DNA from: Bacteroidales bacterium
Lineage (GTDB): Bacteria > Bacteroidota > Bacteroidia > Bacteroidales > UBA1402
Direction: 5' to 3'
DNA length: 64,000 nt
Assembly (NCBI GenBank): GCA_028709215.1
Contig: JAQVXI010000004.1
Span: 6,172-70,171, forward strand
The translations under genes and the position numbers were made by a program. Shown here piece by piece: positions 54,145-63,486 of this stretch (its first letter is position 1; every line of letters begins with the position of its first letter). The notes beneath the pieces are model-generated. The model worked only from the letters and a program-made list of their open reading frames with translations, did no database searches and was not told the origin of the DNA.

Positions 54145-54930
54145 CTATTTTGCACGGTTCCACAATGTTTTTATCTCCTGAATATCAAGCAGACTAAATC
54201 TTACAGAGTGAATATATTCATTTGCTGAAGAATGAAAGTGCCCGTAATACCAATCTGCTATCGGGTTGTTCTTTCTGATAAGATAGTCAAACAGCTTATC
54301 CATCGCTTGTCTCTCCGTATCTAAATCCAGCTCTAATGCACTATCTTTTGCTAACCAACCCGCCACCCCCTCTTTTGTCGTAGGGAAACAAAACGACGGA
54401 GCTGTATGCGAGATGACGGCATCAATGTGAATTCCCTCATCGTTCATCTCGTCAAGGAGAGGTTCATTATAAACGACCTTTTCCTCCTCCCAATAACTCG
54501 GGCAACACATCTTCCCTTTGATTTTTTTGAGCCACATATCCATTTTTCTTGCCTCTCTGTCAACGGAGATACCACCGCCTACGCATAATGCACTCAGTCC
54601 ATTAAATCGTATCACCGAATAATCAGGCAATGCCGTCAGATTCGGATAGTTTATTTTATTCCCGTCAAAGTATTCAGGGTCGTCGTGGTTGCCTCTTATC
54701 AAAAGAAGTTTAACGTTTTGCTTTTTGAGTGTTTGAGAAATCCGGTTGTATAACTGATCGTAATATTCCGGTTTTTCAAAGCCAATACCACAATCTCCGG
54801 CAACAACAAGAAGGGCATCCGTGATAGATAACCGCTTGATGTTGTAAATCAACGGCCTGAATTCCCCGTGTATATCTCCGCATACACAGAGTGATTTATA
54901 GTTTTGCGAGAAGTCGTATAAATACATCAT
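54145..54930 (-). CDS. Calcineurin-like metallophosphoesterase
   Basis: 261 residues with a full set of metal-binding motifs: GDIHG (residues 18-22), GDCG (45-48), GNHD (80-83), SHTAP near 180 and GHFHS near 230. The family cleaves phosphomonoesters or diesters of proteins, nucleotides or nucleic acids using two metals. Its first base overlaps the last base of the nucleotidyltransferase stop, so the two are translationally coupled. It is the last gene of a three-gene cassette; a role linked to the nucleotidyltransferase is inferred from coupling only. Confidence 0.85.
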   Translation of the reverse strand: MMYLYDFSQNYKSLCVCGDIHGEFRPLIYNIKRLSITDALLVVAGDCGIGFEKPEYYDQLYNRISQTLKKQNVKLLLIRGNHDDPEYFDGNKINYPNLTALPDYSVIRFNGLSALCVGGGISVDREARKMDMWLKKIKGKMCCPSYWEEEKVVYNEPLLDEMNDEGIHIDAVISHTAPSFCFPTTKEGVAGWLAKDSALELDLDTERQAMDKLFDYLIRKNNPIADWYYGHFHSSANEYIHSVRFSLLDIQEIKTLWNRAK

Positions 54931-55616
54931 TATAGCTCTACGTTGAAAACCAAACAGATACGCTCAAAGACCTGCGCGGCGTCAATACTTCCCAGTCCCA
55001 TCGCTTTAAAAAAGTTTTTGTCGGGTAATGCCGGTTTTGCCCTTCTGCAAAACTCCGATAAATCGTTGTTTAATTCTTTAGGTAGATTAAAGCTTACATC
55101 TCCCGGAAGTATAACCGACAGCCTGAAAATGTCGTTGAAGTGTTTTCGTATCTTTTTTTCATCGATTCTCTCTCCGCCTTGTTTGCGTACCGTCAGATCA
55201 AGAAATGCTTTAGCTTTCAAGCAAATCAGGCTTTCTGTAGCAGCAATACGAATATCATCGGCAATATGACTATGCGCTAATGTGAAATTATAGTACTCCT
55301 CGTTCATCAGGATTGCAGACAGTTCAATTTGATAAGGAAATTGATCTGCCTCAGGTTTCATAAACCTGAAATACTCACTTGTGCCATTGCCGCGTTGTCT
55401 TGCCTCATACTTGCCGTCGGTAATGAACTGCCAGAATCGACGAACAAATTCCGATGTTAATGCCTCGATTATCAATATGATATCAATATCCTTTGTGGCA
55501 CGGGGATTTTGACCTGCCCGTTCTTCGATCATATCACATGCCGTACCACCTATGATAACATAGCTGTCGCTGTACCGAGCAAAGTATTGCTTGAAGATCT
55601 CGATTCCTTTTACCAT
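54930..55616 (-). CDS. Nucleotidyltransferase, AbiEii-like
   Basis: 228 residues. The nucleotidyltransferase core is seen as IIGGTACDMI (GG at 23-24) followed by ATKDIDIIL (D43, D45 as metal ligands). ESLICLKAKAFLDL and RKHFNDIFRL near the middle are typical of AbiEii/DUF1814 proteins. AbiEii-type toxins of type IV toxin-antitoxin systems transfer nucleotides. Its start overlaps the upstream winged-helix gene by seven bases and its stop overlaps the metallophosphoesterase by one base. Confidence 0.8.
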   Translation of the reverse strand: MVKGIEIFKQYFARYSDSYVIIGGTACDMIEERAGQNPRATKDIDIILIIEALTSEFVRRFWQFITDGKYEARQRGNGTSEYFRFMKPEADQFPYQIELSAILMNEEYYNFTLAHSHIADDIRIAATESLICLKAKAFLDLTVRKQGGERIDEKKIRKHFNDIFRLSVILPGDVSFNLPKELNNDLSEFCRRAKPALPDKNFFKAMGLGSIDAAQVFERICLVFNVEL

Positions 55617-56575
55617 CCTAATTGTTCAATTAAAGCATCCAATGCTGTTTCAATTCTCTCGTCATTACTCTCCTTGTATAGCATATATAGTGATAGTCGG
55701 TCTACATAACCATTTTCGGCAATTAGCGTCGGATTGTATCGCCAAATCTCGATCCTGTTTTCCCCATATTGCGGGTCTGTAACAACATCTATTTTACGAA
55801 ACACCTCTTTACTGATGGCATAATATTTCCCGTACTCGTCATTAAGCATCGTATAATGTGCCATAGCATTCATACCACTCCATAGTTGATTCAGTTCGGA
55901 ATCGGTATAAACCGTTTTCAGAACAGGATTTGTCAGGAAAGGCAAAGCCTTCTCCCATAATGTCTTTTTGTTTTCATCAAACAGGAGAACCTTCTCCTTA
56001 CCGCCTTGCAGATCACACAGGCCAAAAATTCGGAGGTTGTTCATTGCTCGGTTCGTATTGAGGTACGATTCGTCCAATTTTTCCGCAACTTGTTTGATGC
56101 TCATACCATTTAGCGCTTCCTTTTGCAGATGGTATAACAATACAAGCTGAGCCATTGGGGCTAGTTCTTTGGGCTCGCTCGCTACACGCTGAGCTATTTT
56201 GCGAATATCCATCATCAGGACAGGAATAAACAATTGCTTCTGAGGGACAATAAAGTTAATTTTCCGCTCAATGTATCGCTTCCTATTATAGGAAGCGATC
56301 TTATTGAAAACAAAGACCACCGGCATATCAAGCACTTGTTCCGCTATTGACTTTTGCCTTGTTAATTGCTCCGGTGTAAATTCATTCTCTTTCTCTGCCA
56401 TCAACAAACATAGATCACTACCCAATAAACTGATTGTACCGACACTATAAGCAACAGTAATATACAATGGCAGCTTATTCAGCAATGGCTTATCCAACGG
56501 TACGACTACAGCCTGGCAACCCAAAACTTCCTGAATATAGGTCTCTAACTTTCTCATATCATTACTTATTATCAT
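55610..56575 (-). CDS. Winged-helix protein, putative regulator/antitoxin of the cassette
   Basis: 321 residues. An N-terminal alpha/beta domain of about 130 residues precedes a winged helix (about residues 142-195: LVLLYHLQKEALNGMSIKQV... with AEKLDESYLNTNRAMNNLR) and a C-terminal domain of about 120 residues. It is not a plain AbiEi antitoxin because the winged helix is in the middle. Its position before an AbiEii-like gene suggests an antitoxin or repressor role. A near-perfect 12-base inverted repeat at the promoter is the likely binding site. ATG codons at 56575 and 56557 are both possible starts. Confidence 0.72.
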   Translation of the reverse strand: MIISNDMRKLETYIQEVLGCQAVVVPLDKPLLNKLPLYITVAYSVGTISLLGSDLCLLMAEKENEFTPEQLTRQKSIAEQVLDMPVVFVFNKIASYNRKRYIERKINFIVPQKQLFIPVLMMDIRKIAQRVASEPKELAPMAQLVLLYHLQKEALNGMSIKQVAEKLDESYLNTNRAMNNLRIFGLCDLQGGKEKVLLFDENKKTLWEKALPFLTNPVLKTVYTDSELNQLWSGMNAMAHYTMLNDEYGKYYAISKEVFRKIDVVTDPQYGENRIEIWRYNPTLIAENGYVDRLSLYMLYKESNDERIETALDALIEQLGW

Positions 56576-56581
56576 AAAAAA

Positions 56582-56613
56582 TGCACATTATCATTTATTA
56601 CTGATAGTGTGCA
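56582..56613 (-). promoter_or_regulatory. Inverted-repeat operator before the cassette
   Basis: TGCACATTATCA and TGATAGTGTGCA are 12-base arms with one mismatch and an 8-base spacer. The repeat overlaps the -7 element by two bases and covers the predicted transcription start, the position expected for an autorepressor. Confidence 0.75.
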
Positions 56614-56619
56614 AATATA
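56612..56619 (-). promoter_or_regulatory. -7 element of the three-gene cassette
   Basis: TATATTTG on the minus strand, 37 bases before the first start codon, in AT-rich DNA. A -33 TTTG is not obvious. Confidence 0.6.
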
Positions 56620-56649
56620 ATGATAATATATTGATTAACAGCATATATT

Positions 56650-57357
56650 CTATATCAAAGATTGCTCCAACTTATTTTTCCATTTTTCCCAATCCGGCAT
56701 CTCTGCAGCCAACAATTCATAAAATGCCTTGGTATGATTCCGATGGATAAGATGGCAAAGCTCGTGCGTAATCACGTATTCGATACAAGGCCGAGCTGCT
56801 TTAATCAGCTCAGCATTAAGAATAATCTTTCCGCTATTGGTACAACTGCCCCAGCGATTGTTCATCTCCTGAATATAAATTGAGGCCGGCGTTACATGGT
56901 ATCGTCCGAAGCGTTGAATAATAGGTTCCGCAATTTCTGCAAATTTAACTTTTGCATGGACACGATACCAATCATTCATTAACCCTTTAGCCTTCGATTT
57001 GGATGAACAAATGATTTCAAAACAGCGTCCTTTGTATCTTACACTATCAGGCCTCCCTATTGTAACATGTAACAAATATTGACGTCCCAAATACAAATGA
57101 GACTCTCCACTGATAAACCGACGTTCCGAAGTTCTATCTCCAAAAGACTTGAAATAGTGTTGCTGCCTGATAATCCAGGAAGCCCGTTTATGCACTTTGT
57201 CACGAATGGCTTCAACGGTGGCGTTTTCCGGTGCCTTTACCAGAACACTTTCATCCGGCAAAACCGCTATTGTCAAGGTCTTCCGGCTTGAATATTGAAC
57301 GCTGAATACGATATCGGAAGTTCCATAATGAATCGTATCTTCCATTACTTGTACCAT
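56650..57357 (-). CDS. YgjP/SprT-like zinc metallopeptidase (M48-type domain)
   Basis: 235 residues. The zinc motif is HELCH (H198, E199, H202), preceded by NNRWGSC near 166-172, which marks the YgjP/DUF45 family. Genes of this family are very often found next to hsdR in type I restriction loci. It overlaps the hsdR stop by 13 bases. The biochemical role in the locus is not established; proteolysis of HsdR is one possibility. Confidence 0.87.
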   Translation of the reverse strand: MVQVMEDTIHYGTSDIVFSVQYSSRKTLTIAVLPDESVLVKAPENATVEAIRDKVHKRASWIIRQQHYFKSFGDRTSERRFISGESHLYLGRQYLLHVTIGRPDSVRYKGRCFEIICSSKSKAKGLMNDWYRVHAKVKFAEIAEPIIQRFGRYHVTPASIYIQEMNNRWGSCTNSGKIILNAELIKAARPCIEYVITHELCHLIHRNHTKAFYELLAAEMPDWEKWKNKLEQSLI

Positions 57358-60300
57358 AATTTAGCGACATCCACACATTGGTCAATGATCGCATCCATAT
57401 CATCGAAAGTCAATGGAATAGCGTATTTGCGTTTAATCTCATCGATGAGAAAATCTTCCAACTCAATTTTCATTTTTCCAATCAAGGTCGAATTGGTTTG
57501 CCAGTCCACAATGACTTTAGGTTGGATGATGGCATCAAAGGCCAAAGCCGTGTCCAAGGCAACTTGCTTTATATCAACATATTTTTCCACTTCCATTTGA
57601 ATGGATTTGTAGACTTCCAGACTTAAGCCGAAGAATGCTTTCCCTACGTTGCTGCCAACCAGCTCTTTTGGAATCTCCTTATCTGTATGAGCCAACACTT
57701 CTTCTTTATGCTTCAACACCCGATCCAGATATTCCGCTTCGTCGATACGTCCCTGTTCGTAATCGGCAATGGTTTCTTTCAGCATTTGTGAAAACTTCTT
57801 GTAAAAAGCAGGGTCAGTCTCCATCTTCTCATGAATATATTTGGCAGTTCTCGAAGCAATCGTATCCGCTTTGGCAGCTTTACCGGTTATCTTTTCTATC
57901 TCAGCCTCAAATTTTTCTTTATCGAAGATGTTTACCAACTCCGTAATGGTTTTCACCTCACCACTTTCAATGTGCGTATTGATCAGTTTCTGAATCTGTC
58001 CCTCAAACTGTTTATAATTGATGGCATCCGAATAACGCTCTTGAACCGCACTTCGTAACTTCAGGAACAAGGTTAAATCCTCTTTGTACGTACAGATCAT
58101 TGTTTCCGGCGTTTCTTTGTGAAACTCGATGGAAGACAATGCAATTTTCAGGCAACGGGCAAAAGCGGTGAGTTTGTCGTAAAAGTCCTGACGTTTGTCT
58201 TCAAAGCGAAGCAATCGGCTATACGTTTCCAAATCCCGTTTGTTTGAGATTTCTTTAAACAGGCTCCATAGGTCGGAATAGCGTTGCGACAATTGAGTTA
58301 TCTCTTCTTTGATATCGACCATGGTCTGGTGAATATCAGCCATCTCTTCGGTATCGTAGTCGGCATATAGATCCAACGCATCATTCAGTTTACTCAACAC
58401 GCCGTAATAGTCGATAATGTACCCGAACTCTTTGTCGTCACAGACTCTGTTTACACGAGCAACAGCTTGAAGCAAGGTATGATTTGTCAGATTCCGGTCT
58501 AAATACATCACCGTATTTTTGGGTTCATCAAACCCTGTCAGTAACTTATCTACCACAATCATAATTTCGGGAGCATCCGCATTCTTGAAACTGCTGATCA
58601 GGTTTGTTTCATACTTTTTGGGGGTTCCGTGTTCGTCCATCATTTTTTTCCAGAAAGCCTTTTCCATGCTGCTGGTTTCTCCATAAGCTGTTTCTTCTCC
58701 TTCACGGTCATCGGGAGACGTAATAAGCACCTCGGTAGAAATGATACCGATTTCATCCAAGAATTCCTTATACTTGATGGCCACCCGTTTTTTAGGACAA
58801 ACCAGTTGACCCTTAAATTTGGTTCCTTGCCAGTTGTCCCTGAAATGCAGTGAAACATCCCATGCTATGGCATAAATGCGTTGCTCAGCTTCATTGAGTT
58901 GCTCGGCCCGGCTGAATTTCTTTTTTAAATCAGCCTGCTGATAATCCGACAAAGACTCGCACACCCTATTGAAATAATTATCAATGGCATTTTCATGAAC
59001 CATTTGAGGAACCATGCGTCCCTCATATAGTAACGGTACCACGGCTCCGTCTTTTACCGCCTGATCCACCGTATAGACAGGATTTATCATTCCACCGAAC
59101 GTAAGAGCAGTACTTTTTTCCTTTTTCATCAAAGGCGTTCCCGTCATCGCGATGCAGCAAGCGTTGGGCAGTGTTTGTTGCATCCTGATGGCCATTTCTC
59201 CGTATTGGCTGCGATGTGCCTCATCAATAAGGATAAAGATGTTGGGACTTTCCAAGGGTTTCTTGATGCGATGAACAGCCGTCTCAAATTTGTTAATGAT
59301 GGTGGTGATTACGGCATCTGTGGTGCTCTCCAACAATTCAACCAAGTGCGTACCCGTTTTCGCATTTAGAGCATACGTACCACATTTTTTAAACGTGCCT
59401 GTAATTTGCCTGTCTAGATCTGTTCGATCGGTTACCAACACAATTTTGGGATTCCGAATCGATTTATCGAGCACAATGGCTTGTGCCAACATCACCATGG
59501 TCAACGATTTTCCGCTGCCCTGTGTATGCCAGATTACGCCACCTTTCCGTTTGCCGTTCTCCATGATGCGTATCCGTTCCATGGTTTTCTTAACGGCAAA
59601 GAATTGTTGATAGCGTGCCACCTTCTTTACGCCATTGTCGTAAAGGGTAAAGTTGAACAGTATTTCAAGCAATCGCTGCGGACGGCACAAGCAATACAGG
59701 TATTCGTCTTGCAAGGTGGGGGCGATTTCTGCCTTTTCAATCTCTAGGAAATGCTGTTCTACATAGTGATAACGGGTGGCAAATAGATTCTTCCGCTGTT
59801 CCTCTTTCAGGGGTTGATTCACCAATTGATGCAATTCGACTTGATACGATAGCTCTTCTTCCCTTGTTGCAAATTGCTCTCTCCATTTAGACCAGAACTT
59901 TTCAGGCGTGCCAGTCGTGGCATACGAAGCGAACGAATTGGCAAGCCCCAAAAGCAAAGCGGAATACTGGTACAATTCACGGATACCATCTTCTTTTTGA
60001 TTACGCAGGTGTTGCGAGATGGCTTGTTCCAAAGAGTCCTTCACATCCGGCCGCTTGCATTCGATGACGACCAAAGGAATGCCGTTGACAAACAAAACGA
60101 TATCCGGTCTGTAGGTCTCCGTCATCCCTGCACGGCAAACGGCAAATTCTTCGGTAACATGGAATACATTCCGTTCCGGATTTTTCCAATCGATGTATTG
60201 CAGGTTGTAGCTTTTCTTGTCACCATCTATACTTTGTTCCAGCGATTTGCCATACGTCAATAGGTTATAAACGCTTTCATTGGCTGAAATATATCCTTCA

Positions 60301-60566
60301 TCCATCGCGATGTTACGCATCGCAACAACGCCATTCTCAATGTTCTGAGCCGAAAAGAAGGAGGTCTTCGTCCCGCTCACCTGAATCTCGGAATTGATTT
60401 CCTGCAATTGTTTTCGCAAAACCGGCTCCAAAAGCACGTTCGTGATTTTACCGCCACGGAGCTCTAATGCCTCCTCTTGGGAGAGGTACGTATAGCCTAG
60501 TTTCTGCAAGAATTGCAACGCAGGGATTTGGCTGATGTGGTCTTCTTTGAAGGATATGTTGTTCAT
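57345..60566 (-). CDS. hsdR: Type I restriction enzyme HsdR subunit
   Basis: 1073 residues. The nuclease domain has D, then E-x-K in YRPDIVLFVNGIPLVVIECK; the D-to-E spacing of 14 equals that of EcoR124I. Helicase motifs follow: Walker A HTQGSGKS (about 347-354), DEAH (about 448), MTGTPL and the motif V/VI blocks (LLTGFDEP, QAVARVNR). It is the translocase and nuclease of a type I system, working with HsdM and HsdS. Intact, with no visible disruption. Confidence 0.96.
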   Translation of the reverse strand: MNNISFKEDHISQIPALQFLQKLGYTYLSQEEALELRGGKITNVLLEPVLRKQLQEINSEIQVSGTKTSFFSAQNIENGVVAMRNIAMDEGYISANESVYNLLTYGKSLEQSIDGDKKSYNLQYIDWKNPERNVFHVTEEFAVCRAGMTETYRPDIVLFVNGIPLVVIECKRPDVKDSLEQAISQHLRNQKEDGIRELYQYSALLLGLANSFASYATTGTPEKFWSKWREQFATREEELSYQVELHQLVNQPLKEEQRKNLFATRYHYVEQHFLEIEKAEIAPTLQDEYLYCLCRPQRLLEILFNFTLYDNGVKKVARYQQFFAVKKTMERIRIMENGKRKGGVIWHTQGSGKSLTMVMLAQAIVLDKSIRNPKIVLVTDRTDLDRQITGTFKKCGTYALNAKTGTHLVELLESTTDAVITTIINKFETAVHRIKKPLESPNIFILIDEAHRSQYGEMAIRMQQTLPNACCIAMTGTPLMKKEKSTALTFGGMINPVYTVDQAVKDGAVVPLLYEGRMVPQMVHENAIDNYFNRVCESLSDYQQADLKKKFSRAEQLNEAEQRIYAIAWDVSLHFRDNWQGTKFKGQLVCPKKRVAIKYKEFLDEIGIISTEVLITSPDDREGEETAYGETSSMEKAFWKKMMDEHGTPKKYETNLISSFKNADAPEIMIVVDKLLTGFDEPKNTVMYLDRNLTNHTLLQAVARVNRVCDDKEFGYIIDYYGVLSKLNDALDLYADYDTEEMADIHQTMVDIKEEITQLSQRYSDLWSLFKEISNKRDLETYSRLLRFEDKRQDFYDKLTAFARCLKIALSSIEFHKETPETMICTYKEDLTLFLKLRSAVQERYSDAINYKQFEGQIQKLINTHIESGEVKTITELVNIFDKEKFEAEIEKITGKAAKADTIASRTAKYIHEKMETDPAFYKKFSQMLKETIADYEQGRIDEAEYLDRVLKHKEEVLAHTDKEIPKELVGSNVGKAFFGLSLEVYKSIQMEVEKYVDIKQVALDTALAFDAIIQPKVIVDWQTNSTLIGKMKIELEDFLIDEIKRKYAIPLTFDDMDAIIDQCVDVAKLWYK

Positions 60567-61723: not shown

Positions 61724-62203
61724 TTAGTAGCTATTCCAATGTTGCTTTGCAAACATTCGCATGCCATTTCCCGGGCTATACCAAGGGTATAAATGGAGGA
61801 ACTCTTTTTCTGCTTCTTCAAATACCTCTGCATCAATTACATCAACATGATGCAAATAAAGCAAACCAATCACAGCAGATCGCGATTGACCCTGATTGCA
61901 ATGGACAAATATTTTTTGGTTCACAACATTACTGCCAATTGCTTTTATCGCCTCATCAATAATTTCCTTAGGAATATATTCAGGATCAGGAGCATCCACC
62001 AAGTTTAATATTAAGTGGTTGTCTCGGTAAGCAATTAAATATTCGGGGTGCTCCTTGGGTGCAGATCTTCCAGTATATCCTAATGCCTGACGATGATACG
62101 GTTCTTTACAAGCGTGAATTACAAACCATCCGTCCTGATGCCTTACAATATTCTCGTAATCAGCCTGAGAGCCGATATGCAGATTGGGGTATATTTCTTT
62201 CAT
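61724..62203 (-). CDS. Dual-specificity/tyrosine-phosphatase-like protein
   Basis: 159 residues. The active-site signature HCNQGQSRSA gives C102 and R108 (CX5R), and D70 or D73 in LNLVDAPDPEY can act as the general acid, as in cysteine phosphatases. The start overlaps the hsdS stop by four bases (ATGA), so translation is coupled to hsdS. A phosphatase in a type I restriction operon is unusual. Substrate could be a phosphoprotein, a nucleotide or RNA 5' end; nothing in the sequence decides this. Confidence 0.8.
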   Translation of the reverse strand: MKEIYPNLHIGSQADYENIVRHQDGWFVIHACKEPYHRQALGYTGRSAPKEHPEYLIAYRDNHLILNLVDAPDPEYIPKEIIDEAIKAIGSNVVNQKIFVHCNQGQSRSAVIGLLYLHHVDVIDAEVFEEAEKEFLHLYPWYSPGNGMRMFAKQHWNSY

Positions 62204-63486
62204 AGTACTCGCTTCTTACCGGTTAATAGTTGTTGCATAAGTCCATATTTTTGAGTGCGGAGGTATGAAAGTTTCTGTTTGGCAAGGTTTATCTCACGAT
62301 CGGCGGTGGTTAATCGCTCGGCTATTGCTGTTTGTTCAGCAAATACAGGAACGAACACTTTTACAGTCCCAAAGTCTTTGAATTTGCAATTAAGTGTATC
62401 ACTAACTAATCCTTGAGAATGTCTCCAAAATTCATTTATTACTTTTGAGGTTTGAAATAAATAAGCAAAAAATAACACGTTCGTCCCTTTTTGGGGTGTA
62501 ACAATAGTATATGCGGGACTAACTATACCTTCGATGTAGGACAATGCACTACGACCCTGCCACATACGCATTGTATTATATCCAATATCACCTTCACAAA
62601 TTCGTTTATACTTTGATTTATCGTCATTGGAATTGTCTTTCTTGTCAGAATCCGTTTGGTAAATAATACCTAGATCAGCCGTTATAGAGAGTAACGGTAA
62701 ATCTACAACGTTGGTCTCAACTCGTTCCGTAAATAAGTCTTTTAATTTTACAGTCTGCCATGGAGTGTTGAAACCTGAGATACGTTTCTTCCCTGTTAGC
62801 AGTCGCTGCATGAGGGCGCATTTACGGGTTTGTAAAGACTCTATTAATCGACTATGCATTTCAATAGACCTGTCCCATACGGATAGAATTTCGGCAATTT
62901 TTTGTTGCTCGGGGAGAGGAGGAACAAGTACTTCTAATTTTGAAATGTGATTATAACTGATTGAATAAACCTTTGTCCCTTGAGCAACTTGTTTTAATGC
63001 AATAGCCGATTTTGTATTTTTAAACAAATAACGCCCAAAACCCAATGCTATTTCATTCGTATTGCAACGAAGCGGCATAGTATGTAAGCCACTAATCACT
63101 TTGTGATTATTTGTTTCTATAATTTCCCATGATTTGCCAATACCTTCGTAATCTTCCGAAGCATCTGCGAGTATAATATCTCCATTTTTGAGATATGGAA
63201 AAGTTGAATCAACGAGTCGTTCTTTTTTAATAAGACCGTCAAAAATAAAAGGCAATTTGTCCTTTTTCAAATCGACACAGTCTTTCTCCTTATTTAGATG
63301 AATATCACCATAATGAATATAATTCAGTTTTTGTTGCTCAATAGTCATTTGGTCACGTGAAAATGAAAAACTTCCAAGCAGGAAAAAAATATCTCCCAGA
63401 TTCCTCACCTCCCATTCTTTTGGGATAATTCCCAACGAACTGTATTTATATCCTTGTGGTATATTGCTATGTTTATTATCCATCAT
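62200..63486 (-). CDS. hsdS: Type I restriction specificity subunit HsdS
   Basis: 428 residues with two target-recognition domains. The first half ends in PLPEQQKIAEILSVWDRSIE and ALMQRLLTGKKR; the second ends in FAEQTAIAERLTTADREI and GLMQQLLTGKKR. The two repeats are the conserved helices that separate the recognition domains. It sets the DNA target of the system. The gene is intact and starts 20 bases after an ATPase gene. The two repeat copies are alike in protein but not identical in DNA. Confidence 0.93.
   Translation of the reverse strand: MMDNKHSNIPQGYKYSSLGIIPKEWEVRNLGDIFFLLGSFSFSRDQMTIEQQKLNYIHYGDIHLNKEKDCVDLKKDKLPFIFDGLIKKERLVDSTFPYLKNGDIILADASEDYEGIGKSWEIIETNNHKVISGLHTMPLRCNTNEIALGFGRYLFKNTKSAIALKQVAQGTKVYSISYNHISKLEVLVPPLPEQQKIAEILSVWDRSIEMHSRLIESLQTRKCALMQRLLTGKKRISGFNTPWQTVKLKDLFTERVETNVVDLPLLSITADLGIIYQTDSDKKDNSNDDKSKYKRICEGDIGYNTMRMWQGRSALSYIEGIVSPAYTIVTPQKGTNVLFFAYLFQTSKVINEFWRHSQGLVSDTLNCKFKDFGTVKVFVPVFAEQTAIAERLTTADREINLAKQKLSYLRTQKYGLMQQLLTGKKRVL

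Follow-up and report, generated by a model that had tools for sequence, protein, structure and literature searches.

A widespread winged helix-nucleotidyltransferase gene pair with a conserved operator-like palindrome and a recurrently adjoining phosphoesterase gene

Results

A three-gene cassette bordering a type I restriction locus

The window analysed here, a 64,000-nucleotide stretch of a Bacteroidales contig, contains three minus-strand genes that encode a winged-helix protein (WH), a nucleotidyltransferase (NT) and a metallophosphoesterase (MPE) (Table 1). WH and NT overlap by 7 bases and NT and MPE by 1 base, exactly as an earlier, sequence-only reading of this DNA had described. The trio sits at one end of a type I restriction-modification locus that includes a YgjP-like peptidase, HsdR, RhuM, a DSP-like phosphatase and HsdS, and its other flank consists of topA and further housekeeping genes. 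The gene for the YgjP-like metallopeptidase also adjoins HsdR in other loci that we compared. Because of the DSP-like phosphatase gene, the restriction locus of the window holds two kinds of phosphatase-like genes. A search for an AraC-type flanking gene in four relatives defined no island edge, and sigma-70 and terminator scans gave results not above shuffles. None of the three proteins matched a model in PADLOC-DB 2.0.0 up to E 0.1.

Table 1. Genes and other features of the cassette and its surroundings (positions in the window)
Feature	Position	Strand	Description
WH	55610-56575	-	321 aa: N-terminal alpha/beta domain, winged helix, C-terminal domain
WH N-terminal alpha/beta domain	56186-56575		see text
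WH start, second Met	56557-56575		alternative start (MRKLETYI)
NT	54930-55616	-	228 aa; MenT/AbiEii-like nucleotidyltransferase; motifs GG, RxTxDxD, E98, K134, KH..D162 kept
NT gap junction	near 55322		28 residues absent right after E98
MPE	54145-54930	-	261 aa; calcineurin-like metallophosphoesterase, family MPa; Pfam Metallophos (PF00149) 4.2e-10
Palindrome arms	56567-56593, 56602-56628		81% complementary
Putative operator	56580-56615	-	TTTGCAC-N22-GTGCATT; overlaps -7 element TATATTTG at 56612-56619
YgjP-like metallopeptidase	56650-57357	-	Pfam 2.8e-52; belongs to adjoining type I restriction locus
HsdR	57345-60566	-	type I restriction subunit; context gene
DSP-like phosphatase	61724-62203		between RhuM and HsdS; 4-base overlap with HsdS
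HsdS	62200-63486	-	type I specificity subunit; context gene; HsdM outside window

WH carries a central winged helix

WH had been described as having an unusual layout with its DNA-binding domain in the middle, and this holds: the winged helix spans approximately residues 140-200, between two domains. The AlphaFold model has a mean pLDDT of 91.5, and MarR-like matches are restricted to the winged helix. No AbiEi model was found among the Pfam matches of the 24 WH members that we aligned. We rejected WH as a member of the AbiEi family, for which Pfam, NCBIfam and PADLOC give no support, and discarded the hemagglutinin hits of its sequence search as chance matches. Fold comparison of the N-terminal alpha/beta domain gave weak hits (E ~0.02-0.04) to phage proteins labelled restriction endonuclease, and no conserved nuclease motif was recognised in it. 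WH may begin at its second methionine, a start that agrees better with most relatives than the annotated one (MIISND).

NT resembles AbiEii and MenT toxins

The AbiEii-like identity proposed earlier for NT agrees with both its fold and its motifs, which are AbiEii/MenT-like. Pfam AbiEii matches 7 of 19 NT members (best 2e-6), and the NT of the window scores 15.2 bits against a cut-off of 22.5. Searched against PDB sequences, the NT profile found no match, and the relation to solved proteins came from fold comparison alone. The closest solved fold to a model of the full-length NT from locus L030, which is of moderate confidence (pLDDT 82.9, pTM 0.85), is MenT1 in the MenAT1 complex (8an5, E 9.6e-5); viral poly(A) polymerases and nucleotidyltransferase 4ok0 of H. 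pylori come next. Conservation across 84 NT members reaches at least 95% for R39, T41, D43, D45, E98, K134, K158, H159 and D162, and a MenAT-type active site (Thr/Ser-x-Asp-x-Asp plus the motif III/IV Lys and Asp) is present as T41, D43, D45, K134 and D162. MenT1 toxicity requires D41, K137 and D152 (PMC10435456); we equated K134 and D162 of NT with K137 and D152 from the order and spacing of the motifs rather than from superposed structures. In MenT1, T39 is auto-phosphorylated upon antitoxin binding, which turns the toxin off (PMC11375011), and T41 of NT corresponds, by its placement with respect to the aspartates, to the threonine auto-phosphorylated in MenT1 and MenT3.

The NT of the window has a feature that the earlier reading missed: an in-frame gap of 84 bases, the equivalent of 28 residues. 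It is unique among the 84 aligned members: each of the other 83 has at most 8 gaps across the columns concerned. Three of the residues lost from the window copy are at least 95% conserved among members. The full-length model shows much of the absent segment as a loop of low confidence, and the catalytic residues all remain. The window's own NT may be inactive or defective.

The WH-NT pair is widespread

Of 393 genomes of the order searched with WH, 25, representing 23 genera, carry it, and in most of these loci NT comes after WH, the two genes overlapping by a short stretch. Within this order sample, NT is truncated at L037, L045, L050 and L051 and missing at L044 and L047, with WH open. Counting also L073 and L125, NT is broken or truncated beside an open WH at six loci, some of which may reflect assembly errors; such breakage is consistent with an easily lost toxin. 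A scan of GTDB genomes with an NT profile yielded at least 550 relatives, the best 80 of which are chiefly from Bacteroidota, with others from records labelled Clostridia, Calditrichota, Spirochaetes, Balneolaceae and Chitinivibrionales. Eighteen loci are on viral contigs. WH-NT is a conserved, widespread bicistron and the core of the cassette.

A conserved palindrome precedes WH

The palindrome that had been noted on the -7 element is present. Its core, TGCACACTATCA-N8-TGATAATGTGCA, begins within TATATTTG, a -7 element of the Bacteroidota type. Compared with dinucleotide shuffles, the palindrome was better than 40 of 40 using 130 bases upstream, and better than 34 of 40 once 20 coding bases were added; what really supports it is its conservation in relatives. 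The upstream regions of very distant WH genes share TTTGCAC-N20..23-GTGCAAA. This motif, at 12 or more of 14 positions, was found upstream of 40 of 98 WH genes versus 2 of 828 other ORFs; it preceded none of 93 NT genes and none of 33 upstream MPb genes (MPb is a phosphoesterase family described below). The Fisher p value of 1.5e-40 for enrichment before WH is optimistic, as the motif was derived from some of the same loci; the contrast between WH and controls is nevertheless large.

The operator precedes WH even where a phosphoesterase gene sits upstream, and that gene is most likely transcribed outside WH operator control. Since the palindrome is conserved upstream of WH only, WH is most likely a dedicated autorepressor of the WH-NT operon acting through the predicted operator. 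The genome of the window contains a single exact copy of the operator. We rejected WH as a regulator of restriction genes, given this single copy and the occurrence of the 12/14 motif before only 2 of 69 Hsd-type genes.

Two phosphoesterase families recur beside WH-NT

The third gene had been called a full metallophosphoesterase, and MPE is indeed complete, with the motifs GDIHG, GDCG, GNHDD, SHT and GHFH. It aligns with the enzymes of L028 and L031 with metal-binding motifs intact, and Pfam Metallophos matches all 14 phosphoesterase members. These belong to two families, MPa and MPb, which are ~20% identical. In the order sample, which is even, a phosphoesterase gene lies beside WH-NT in 14 of 26 loci versus ~0.01 expected by chance; MPa is found in three (the window, L028 and L031) and MPb in eleven. 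The GTDB-scan figures come from its 80 best matches, an uneven sample. Overall, after de-duplication at 90% identity, 80 loci had enough flank, of which 50 carry an adjacent phosphoesterase and 30 carry none. The 50 comprise 28 arranged MPb-WH-NT, 17 arranged WH-NT-MPb (one without NT) and five arranged WH-NT-MPa.

In a quickly built tree of 71 NTs, the phosphoesterase changes between present and absent at least 13 times, and the arrangements cluster far above shuffled labels. The clade that contains the window, L028, L112 and L108 (SH-aLRT 95, quick method) shows four arrangements, with MPa downstream, MPa divergent upstream, MPb one gene further and MPb directly downstream, so that different enzymes occupy the same place in near relatives. 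At L112, a protein of 1107 aa lies between NT and MPb (L112:8792-12896); it has a weak HATPase and NO VEIN C-terminal match and is possibly another defence gene.

These data bear on how the third gene had been read. The metallophosphoesterase is not confined with the pair to close relatives, as the trio recurs in distant bacteria, and this recurrence in the order sample, the de-duplicated loci and the NT tree led us to reject a lineage-specific accident. The gene is recurrent beside the pair; it is neither obligatory nor of one family, at least two families having been recruited. We also rejected the idea of an obligatory dedicated subunit, given the loci that lack it and the presence of both families elsewhere. 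As for the proposed proximity to restriction genes, type I genes are found near 16 of the 80 loci and most copies are elsewhere; 35 of the 50 phosphoesterase-bearing loci have no Hsd genes, and the phosphoesterase is still placed overlapping or adjacent.

MPa and MPb also occur apart from WH-NT

Both phosphoesterase families are also found without WH-NT, sometimes near other defence genes. These contexts include GmrSD in L164, a SMODS synthase in L167, and RhuM with HsdR in L168. At L164:5149-8339, L165:3837-6096 and L167:5249-7495, MPa is found by GmrSD-type genes, lined up with two further phosphoesterase-like genes, and near a SMODS (CBASS-type) synthase.

MPb sometimes accompanies a second pair in Bacteroidota, which we named HTH2-NT2. 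In L183 (1498-3510), MPb shares 4 bases with the gene of another nucleotidyltransferase, NT2, which lies behind a different regulator, and in L189 (802-2280) NT2 and MPb are one protein of 492 aa. NT2 has the same motif as NT, GG..RxTxDxD, and the similarity between the two is marginal. The HTH2-NT2 pair occurs in ~30 of the 393 genomes of the order, with MPb in two or three only. It resembles WH-NT in combining a regulator with an AbiEii-like nucleotidyltransferase and sometimes MPb; its regulator and nucleotidyltransferase, however, come from families other than WH and NT.

Discussion

The closest known systems are AbiE and MenAT. Like AbiE (AbiEi/AbiEii, DUF1814), WH-NT has a regulator or antitoxin-type gene first, an overlapping AbiEii-like nucleotidyltransferase gene, and an inverted repeat at the promoter for predicted autorepression. 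Unlike AbiE, in which the AbiEi antitoxin has an N-terminal winged helix, WH has a central one and matches no AbiEi model, and WH-NT loci often add a phosphoesterase. With MenAT1 and MenAT3 of Mycobacterium tuberculosis, NT shares the nearest solved fold and the T-x-D-x-D, Lys and Asp motifs, whereas the MenA antitoxins are unrelated to WH. MenAT1 is without transcriptional autoregulation, and a 2024 paper on MenT auto-phosphorylation names no phosphatase or phosphoesterase (PMC11375011). Among calcineurin-like metallophosphoesterases, MPa compares with SbcD-like and MPb with MPPED2-like enzymes; metal-binding motifs are complete in both, and the structure matches are weak and partial, so that the substrate is not readable from sequence. 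The sequence-only reading knew of no described system with this trio, and we too found none in the literature searched. The trio looks like a variant of the AbiE/MenAT kind with an added phosphoesterase, absent from PADLOC and from that literature.

The WH-NT core is well supported by comparison, with WH a probable autorepressor and antitoxin. We consider it an even chance that the whole is an autoregulated toxin-antitoxin pair of the AbiE/MenAT type with a recruited phosphoesterase that reverses either the phosphorylation of NT or the product of NT. WH would bind the palindrome on the -7 element, repress the operon and probably neutralise NT. We infer that NT is toxic; its most likely action would be to extend tRNA 3' ends with nucleotides so that translation stops, and the system may have a role in phage defence. 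The phosphoesterase could be a re-arming enzyme that strips the inhibitory phosphate from T41 of NT, or a resetting enzyme that removes the nucleotides added by NT. The genomic evidence speaks for a functional link between phosphoesterases and toxins of the nucleotidyltransferase type and favours neither option. Against this explanation stand the 30 loci of 80 without a phosphoesterase, the presence of both phosphoesterase families apart from WH-NT, the lack of an AbiEi match for WH and the 28 residues missing from the window's NT.

This last point raises the possibility, to which we give slightly less than an even chance, that the cassette of the window is decaying, with NT inactive and only WH and MPE maintained. 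The uniqueness of the gap and the conservation of three lost residues point that way, as does L047, from a genome of the same genus, which lacks NT and keeps WH and MPb. The loss is nevertheless in frame, spares the catalytic residues and removes mostly a low-confidence loop; WH, MPE and the operator are intact, and decay would bear on the window copy, not on the family. A different reading would make WH-NT a plain two-gene pair of the AbiE type, the phosphoesterases being general cargo of defence islands or restriction loci that does not act on NT or its product. The many other contexts of MPa and MPb (GmrSD, SMODS and restriction loci among them), the absence of a phosphoesterase from about a third of WH-NT loci, and the position of upstream MPb outside the operator are all in line with it. 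We regard it as rather unlikely, weakened as it is by the overlapping or adjacent placement in the 35 loci away from Hsd genes, the convergent use of two families within one clade and the single protein that joins MPb with a second nucleotidyltransferase. Calcineurin-like enzymes often cleave phosphodiesters, and nucleotidyltransferase folds also serve in signalling, so NT might make a nucleotide signal or nucleotidylate a protein, with the phosphoesterase degrading the signal or removing the modification; this would be a signalling or regulatory pair and not a tRNA toxin. We find this quite improbable, since the solved folds closest to NT belong to MenT1, poly(A) polymerases and 4ok0, not to signal synthases, and WH-NT is found without any effector gene.

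Returning to the toxin-antitoxin reading with a recruited phosphoesterase, phage defence has been linked to MenT/AbiEii toxins, which are very common and whose auto-phosphorylation or tRNA modification might be reversible. A phosphoesterase independently attached to such toxins in several lineages is a concrete candidate for the reversing enzyme. Tentatively, phosphoesterases of different families may have been repeatedly recruited to undo or re-arm toxins of this type, via the toxin threonine or the modified tRNA; in the second nucleotidyltransferase family the toxin-like enzyme and the phosphoesterase can form one polypeptide. If true, nucleotidyltransferase toxin-antitoxin systems would include a class equipped with a reversing enzyme of its own. 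The conserved operator offers a simple handle for finding and annotating hundreds of uncatalogued copies.
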